Source of the DNA: Thermosynechococcaceae cyanobacterium MS004
GTDB lineage: Bacteria > Cyanobacteriota > Cyanobacteriia > Thermosynechococcales > Thermosynechococcaceae
DNA length: 64,000 nucleotides
Direction of reading: 5' to 3'
Assembly (NCBI GenBank): GCA_022402525.1
Contig: JAKRSB010000085.1
Coordinates: 1 to 64,000 of the forward strand
The notes under the pieces were generated by a model that saw only the letters and a program-made list of their open reading frames with translations, was not told the origin of the DNA and did no database searches. A program made the translations under genes and the position numbers. Shown piece by piece: positions 1 to 815 of this stretch; the first letter of the stretch is position 1, and each line of letters starts with the position of its first letter.

Positions 1-478
1 CTGGAGTTGGCATGATATTGCGATTTACCCCACTATTCTTTGATGCACAATCGATAGCTGATTCAATTGGCGGGATTAACGCATCTTCTTCATGTGGAAT
101 TATGATGAATCTACAGTGAAAATCAGCCAGATCGAGATTTTCAACAGATTGGATACTTTTCGAATGTTCGCCTAGACGCCTATATAAACTGATACCTTCT
201 CTACCACCTTGCCCACGGCGTGAGCCGATTGGAATGGCCTTGCCAACATAGATAAGTAAGTCGTACCGAATTCGGTTGACTGCGGTGAGAGGAGCGTAAA
301 GCTCGAAACTTCCTGTGTAGTAAATAGCGTATATACCTGAGCCAATAAAGCTTCCAGGGGGCGGCAATTCATAAACTGGAGTGCCATTGAAAAAACGAAT
401 TGCGTCTTTTAATAGGTTTTCCAGCTCAGGAGAGCGGAAGATATGCTCTTCCCGATTGAAGGGCTGTTTCGCAATCAT
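1..478 (-). CDS. Eco29kI-family type II restriction endonuclease (GIY-YIG), N-terminal part, cut by window edge
   Basis: Reading the minus strand from ATG at 478 gives 159 codons with no stop before the window ends. A TAG lies immediately upstream in frame, so this ATG is the natural start. The protein has a D-A-I-R-F-F-N-G-T-P segment (25-34), a GIY-type motif GIYAIYY (48-54), the second half IYVGKA (76-81), an R-R-L-x-E-H helix (100-105), N-L-D-L-A-D-F (114-120) and a Glu near 139. From memory this follows the order of Eco29kI, a GIY-YIG restriction enzyme for CCGCGG in which the equivalent Tyr, Arg, His and Glu are catalytic. Family assignment is strong; the specificity here is only inferred. 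A cytosine methyltransferase would be expected just beyond the left edge. The first 600 bases are visibly more AT-rich than the neighbours, as expected of a transferred restriction gene. Confidence 0.85.
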   Translation of the reverse strand, partial: MIAKQPFNREEHIFRSPELENLLKDAIRFFNGTPVYELPPPGSFIGSGIYAIYYTGSFELYAPLTAVNRIRYDLLIYVGKAIPIGSRRGQGGREGISLYRRLGEHSKSIQSVENLDLADFHCRFIIIPHEEDALIPPIESAIDCASKNSGVNRNIMPTP

Positions 479-815
479 CTAAGACAGTTTCCAAAGAGCA
501 TAATCTTACATGCATAATACGATTTCGTAAGCTACGCCAATAGTATATAGGTATGTAGATTCTTCAGTACTTCCGAGAAATTGTACTAAATTGTTGATTG
601 TGTCCTCGGTGGGGTAAGGGTTTTAGTCCTATTGGGTAGGGCAGACTCTCGACAAAATGATGGGCGATCGCTTCGTATCCAGAATCCGCAAACATTTGAC
701 GAGCATTGAAGTGGCGCGGCCGATCGCAGCCATCAAAGACAGCAATAGCGAGCAGTGCGATTTCCTCACCTCAAAGGAATCATCACCCCCAACCCGGCAG
801 GAGGCAAAAGTGCCT
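479..815. other. Intergenic region, no convincing gene
   Basis: This stretch separates the restriction gene from the PBP gene. On the minus strand a readable frame of about 60 codons runs roughly 770 to 590 with protein-like composition (segment F-A-D-S-G-Y-E-A-I-A-H-H-F). It is preceded by an in-frame TGA with no ATG or GTG start nearby, so it could be the tail of a degraded gene. I do not recognise it. Confidence 0.4.

Follow-up and report, generated by a model that had tools for sequence, protein, structure and literature searches.

Probable inactivation of an Eco29kI-type restriction-modification system by IS1-family transposition in Thermosynechococcaceae cyanobacterium MS004

A stretch of 64,000 nucleotides of the Thermosynechococcaceae cyanobacterium MS004 genome (contig JAKRSB010000085.1, positions 1 to 64,000; referred to here as the window) very probably preserves at its left edge one part of an inactivated Eco29kI-type Type II restriction-modification (R-M) system, the endonuclease gene of which was split by IS1-family transposition while an intact-looking methyltransferase gene is retained on another contig, C52. 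Such transposition would have left codons 1–142 of the nuclease at the edge of contig C135, which starts at window position 1, and the last 44 codons at the end of C52, where they lie directly upstream of the start of a C5-cytosine methyltransferase gene and overlap it. The two nuclease parts most probably derive from one gene, with two copies of the insertion sequence (IS), or the result of an IS-driven inversion or deletion, between them.

The nuclease frame begins with an ATG at positions 478–476 of the minus strand and runs to the window edge, giving 159 amino acids; its 5′ limit is set by an in-frame TAG (479–481, minus strand) directly before the ATG, in agreement with the initial annotation, which had fixed the start in this way. 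The 5′ part of the gene (53–478, minus strand; codons 1–142) was assigned to the Eco29kI-type GIY-YIG restriction endonucleases, as had been proposed, by its match to PF09517 (RE_Eco29kI; E 2.5e-28, 99.4 bits at a family cut-off of 30.8, covering family positions 2–100) and by the Eco29kI chains in the PDB, which match residues 5–142 (E 3.4e-38). The motifs GIY (48–50), IYVGK (76–80), RLGEH (101–105), and NLDLADF are all present, so that the GIY and YIG halves and the R-L-x-E-H and N-L-D-L-A-D-F signatures reported earlier were found again. All 159 residues had been said to follow Eco29kI, and this is correct up to residue 142 only: the PDB alignment of the 159-residue frame ends there, the same frame used as query gives matches that stop at exactly this residue in 73 of 83 homologous loci, before it in the other 10, and past it in no case, and the last 17 residues (143–159) are IS-derived, being read from the right end of the element. 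The region had further been called AT-rich and its family small; the first holds to a moderate degree (53–478 has 44.4% GC and the whole window 52.4%, which puts the segment near the 7th percentile for stretches of its size) and the second in a relative sense, with 166 relatives confirmed in one scan (80 loci kept) and the PF09517 cut-off passed by 5 of 386 genomes of the phylum.

According to one study (PMC1952068), the Eco29kI active site comprises Y49, Y76, R104, H108, E142, and N154, and mutation N154L alone leaves about 10% of the activity while E142A leaves none. Five of the six residues are kept here, since Y49, Y76, R104, H108, and E142 have their aligned counterparts in Y50, Y77, R101, H105, and E139 of the window protein (a 214-aa plasmid protein of the Eco29kI family, which bears all six residues at these numbers, served to check the numbering), and the N154 region falls in a missing stretch. 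The fragment ends three residues past the metal-binding Glu and is without the Asn154 region, the conserved DGFGNHDPG..GRYxQAKS stretch, and the C-terminus. Because the whole stretch with the N154 equivalent is lost, the activity should be abolished, and the fragment, judged from its sequence, should not cut DNA.

Window positions 1–52 (plus strand) form the right end of an IS1-family element that is present in multiple copies; this end cuts the nuclease gene and coincides with the end of the contig. The plus-strand reading of these bases is the 3′ end of a transposase gene (..AWSWHDIAIYPTIL-stop), the terminal sequence of the right end is ..GATGCACAATC, the left end is GGTAGTGCATC.., and the inverted ends are imperfect. 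The copy at the window displays the last transposase residues only, and the family was assigned with a 145-aa C-terminal transposase piece of the copy on C73, which matches DDE_Tnp_IS1 (PF03400; E 1.4e-9, 38.8 bits, cut-off 24.1), an IS1-type DDE domain. Target duplications of 8–9 bp are typical of the IS1 family, and perfect 8-bp duplications at three other insertions of this element (C78/C85, C33/C42, and C140/C13) confirm its ends. The element shares with the family the transposase domain, the imperfect inverted ends, and the short target duplication, while differing in that its full length is not assembled here and in that both gene halves touch the same element end. The other copies also include a 261-bp piece with both IS ends on C73 (8502–8762 of stretch L017), which is a short, internally deleted, MITE-like derivative.

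The remaining nuclease part was located by a PF09517 search of the own genome with E up to 10, which returned two matches, the window and C52:79812–79913, and no intact second copy of the nuclease. The C52 match corresponds to PF09517 positions 132–163 and belongs to a C part of 44 codons that begins immediately at a further copy of this IS right end; it is short and reaches 20 bits alone (E 7e-4), which is under the family cut-off of 30.8. A C-terminal part of the expected kind does exist, though on C52 instead of just beyond the window and with about 95 nt missing before it. No single uninterrupted nuclease frame was found: one part is on C135 and the other on C52, and each adjoins an IS right end at its break.

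The stop codon of the C part overlaps the ATG of a 387-aa C5-cytosine methyltransferase (PF00145, E 2.6e-61), the frame of which is open and looks intact. A methyltransferase partner had been predicted beyond the left edge of the window, and a cognate enzyme of the predicted type does adjoin the nuclease gene in the order R then M, but on C52, the window contig ending at position 1. The protein contains GPPCQPFS, ENVKG, QKRERIF, and GNAVP, which we take to fill the corresponding methyltransferase motif roles, and it aligns end to end with the enzymes of Eco29kI-type loci (13 of 83 loci used) except for a shorter variable loop. The genome has six C5 methyltransferase genes, only one of them of Eco29kI type; the next best by score, on C18, is 29% identical, with 105 versus 902 bits. 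The 387-aa enzyme is probably still able to act as an orphan, in which case it would go on marking its site harmlessly.

The extent of the loss was estimated by comparison of 83 loci, that is, the 80 kept from the 166 relatives and 3 from the phylum genome search. A match to the C part was obtained in 25 of them and in none of the other 58. Codon 142 and the second retained C-part codon are 96 nt apart in 24 of the 25; 20 of these gave the value directly, and the other 4 did so once an N match that ended at residue 136 or 140 had been corrected for. The exception is the frameshifted L083, with 89 nt. The N and C parts do not overlap, and the first C-part codon retains one base; therefore about 95 nt, or about 31 codons, are gone, including the Asn154 equivalent and the DGFGNHDPG..GRYxQAKS stretch. 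The corresponding 40 residues of the Hymenobacter psychrophilus locus L066, a 40-aa query used without a positive control, gave no match to the missing middle in the own genome.

Both nuclease halves abut an IS right end, and their 8-bp flanks, GATAGCTG in the window (53–60) and GGACTTAA on C52, are not duplicates of each other, which rules out a single clean IS insertion. A partner flank at a left end was found for neither half among the 7 left ends (versus 12 right ends) of the assembly, nor at a further, more diverged left end on C17; since 7 of the other 10 right ends are likewise without a left-end partner, this absence is not specific to the nuclease gene. The insertion of two IS copies in opposite orientation would place right ends at both outer junctions and the middle piece between two left ends. 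Alternatively, an IS-driven adjacent inversion would produce the same arrangement, and a deletion may have been added. The middle piece would form a contig of only about 200 bases, which may have dropped out of the assembly. If the opposed copies still held a short inverted nuclease piece, recombination or excision between them could restore the nuclease, and the IS copies would then switch restriction on and off while the methyltransferase stayed on throughout; this version is considered hardly credible.

The joint between C52 and the window is not spanned by any contig, and conserved gene order was sought in 10 relatives with two synteny queries: the window gene at 816–2852, which neighbours the system and looks by eye like a penicillin-binding protein, and the gene that opens the C52 stretch (26–1321 of L011), by eye a cation antiporter. 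Both occur on one contig in three relatives (G280, G386, and G400), far apart in each, and the genes that face the system in the relatives read have no match in the window or in the last 20 kb of C52. Synteny in relatives lends no support to the adjacency of C52 and the window, though the two may still adjoin. The idea of a mobile R-M unit was not borne out either; the differing genes on both sides of the system in the relatives read only suggest a variable site.

According to these data it is conceivable, if improbable, that the N and C parts belong to two different Eco29kI-type systems, each cut independently by the IS, and never formed one gene, an explanation that would account for the junction of both parts with the same IS end, for the lack of a shared target duplication, and for chromosomal neighbours that are not close in the three relatives where they are visible. 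Against it stand the detection of just one N part and one C part in the genome, the presence of a single methyltransferase of Eco29kI type, and the complementarity of the two parts across a gap the size of which is constant in 24 of the 25 homologs measured.

The initial annotation had assumed an intact gene continuing for about 60 residues past the left edge and had named a frame ending just outside the window as the observation that would speak against it. In favour of such a gene, with an active restriction system, are the good conservation of the N-terminal 142 residues with most of the active site and the fact that only 52 IS bases are visible before the contig stops. Yet the contig starts inside the IS end, the same 52 bases recur at 11 other places in the genome (12 with the window; most at or near contig ends), the nuclease frame stops after four more codons in all four other IS copies with enough sequence to be read, which is the very observation named, and PF09517 has no match outside the window except the C-terminal part on C52, so an intact gene is very unlikely. 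An assembly artefact, that is, a mis-join at the repeat with the nuclease gene whole in the cell, deserves still less credence, for although the 4.93-Mb genome is assembled into 150 contigs and the break falls at contig ends that have about 55 bases in common, as is typical of short-read graphs, the gene–IS junctions lie inside contigs at both breaks, the same IS is flanked by target duplications elsewhere, and a mis-join alone is insufficient to remove about 95 nt of the gene.

The scarcity of the Eco29kI site gives a further view of the system, the predicted specificity of which would be CCGCGG. The whole 4.93-Mb genome contains 3 CCGCGG sites, the fewest of 29 family genomes (25–1018 in the others); the two genus mates (76% and 82% complete) have 32 and 25, and the 26 other family genomes 59–1018. 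The control word GGCGCC, which is also rare, occurs 37 times here, and the genus mates have 23 and 10 copies of it. The scarcity is in part a feature of the lineage, because both genus mates are low too, and the further drop relative to them is read here as a sign that the genome was long exposed to a CCGCGG-specific system. The 29-genome comparison is a stronger test than the word counts in the own sequence, in which CCGCGG is absent both from the window (13.1 expected) and from 141,517 bases comprising the window and 12 other own-genome stretches (24 expected); in these bases alone the avoidance is not specific, because other palindromes are absent there too. Among the products of methyl-cytosine mutation, CTGCGG and CCGCAG are not raised in the same bases, while TCGCGG (42 versus 34.9 expected) and CCGCGA (45 versus 25.8) are slightly raised. 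Taken together, the scarcity suggests past restriction, or methylation-driven loss, at CCGCGG, and m5C mutation or a further system with this specificity may have added to it. In the 141,517 bases CTCGAG (0 versus 19.9 expected) and CACGTG (0 versus 6.0 expected) are absent as well, hinting at past restriction with other specificities.

Compared with the described representative, Eco29kI of plasmid pECO29 (R.Eco29kI and M.Eco29kI, CCGC^GG), the system shares the PF09517 nuclease family, the C5-cytosine methyltransferase partner, most of the active-site residues, and the placement of R before M with overlapping stop and start, the layout given for Eco29kI in PMC3039593. It differs in the IS1-cut nuclease gene without its middle codons and in its location on contigs of 194 and 80 kb, and the R part is 44% identical to the best 10 E. 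coli and Salmonella plasmid copies listed. The closest of the 80 loci kept is that of H. psychrophilus (L066), with 55% identity in the N part of R and 60% in M and with the same R–M overlap, where R, unlike the split gene here, has an unbroken frame of 228 codons from stop to stop.

Orphan methyltransferases are generally known to remain after loss of the restriction gene, and the present locus resembles them in its whole M frame and broken nuclease, while both nuclease fragments are still recognisable here, for which reason a fairly recent loss of the nuclease is suggested. The locus would show an R-M system in the course of a decay that follows the expected order, with cutting lost first and protection kept. 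Its former specificity is apparently still legible in the genome from how few CCGCGG sites remain, so that the time for which avoidance persists after nuclease loss could be estimated. A search of the literature for IS-interrupted restriction genes in cyanobacteria retrieved no paper. The splitting of a nuclease by an IS with the methyltransferase spared is a fairly ordinary route of loss for such a defence, and as a window finding this new, decayed example of the already known Eco29kI type is modest.

Among the 80 related loci the gene order is R then M in 21 and M then R in 55, with another order in 1 and no M in the examined flank in 3. Uncurated flags were raised for 10 of the 80 R frames and for 3 of the 77 M frames, at most a hint of nuclease decay in relatives. 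The M flags at L075 and L119 seem to reflect a second methyltransferase at a distance of kilobases, and L111 is cut by a contig end. R frames ending early were seen in other organisms at L070, L083, L091, L097, and L102, the methyltransferase match being kept without stops in 4 of the 5; L091 is from a cyanobacterial MAG. In the present genome a further C5 methyltransferase gene (381 aa; L062 on C78, 1–1263, and the start of L014 on C85) has the same IS1-type element about 63 bp upstream of it, where the 8-bp duplication TTAAGAAC pairs C78 and C85.
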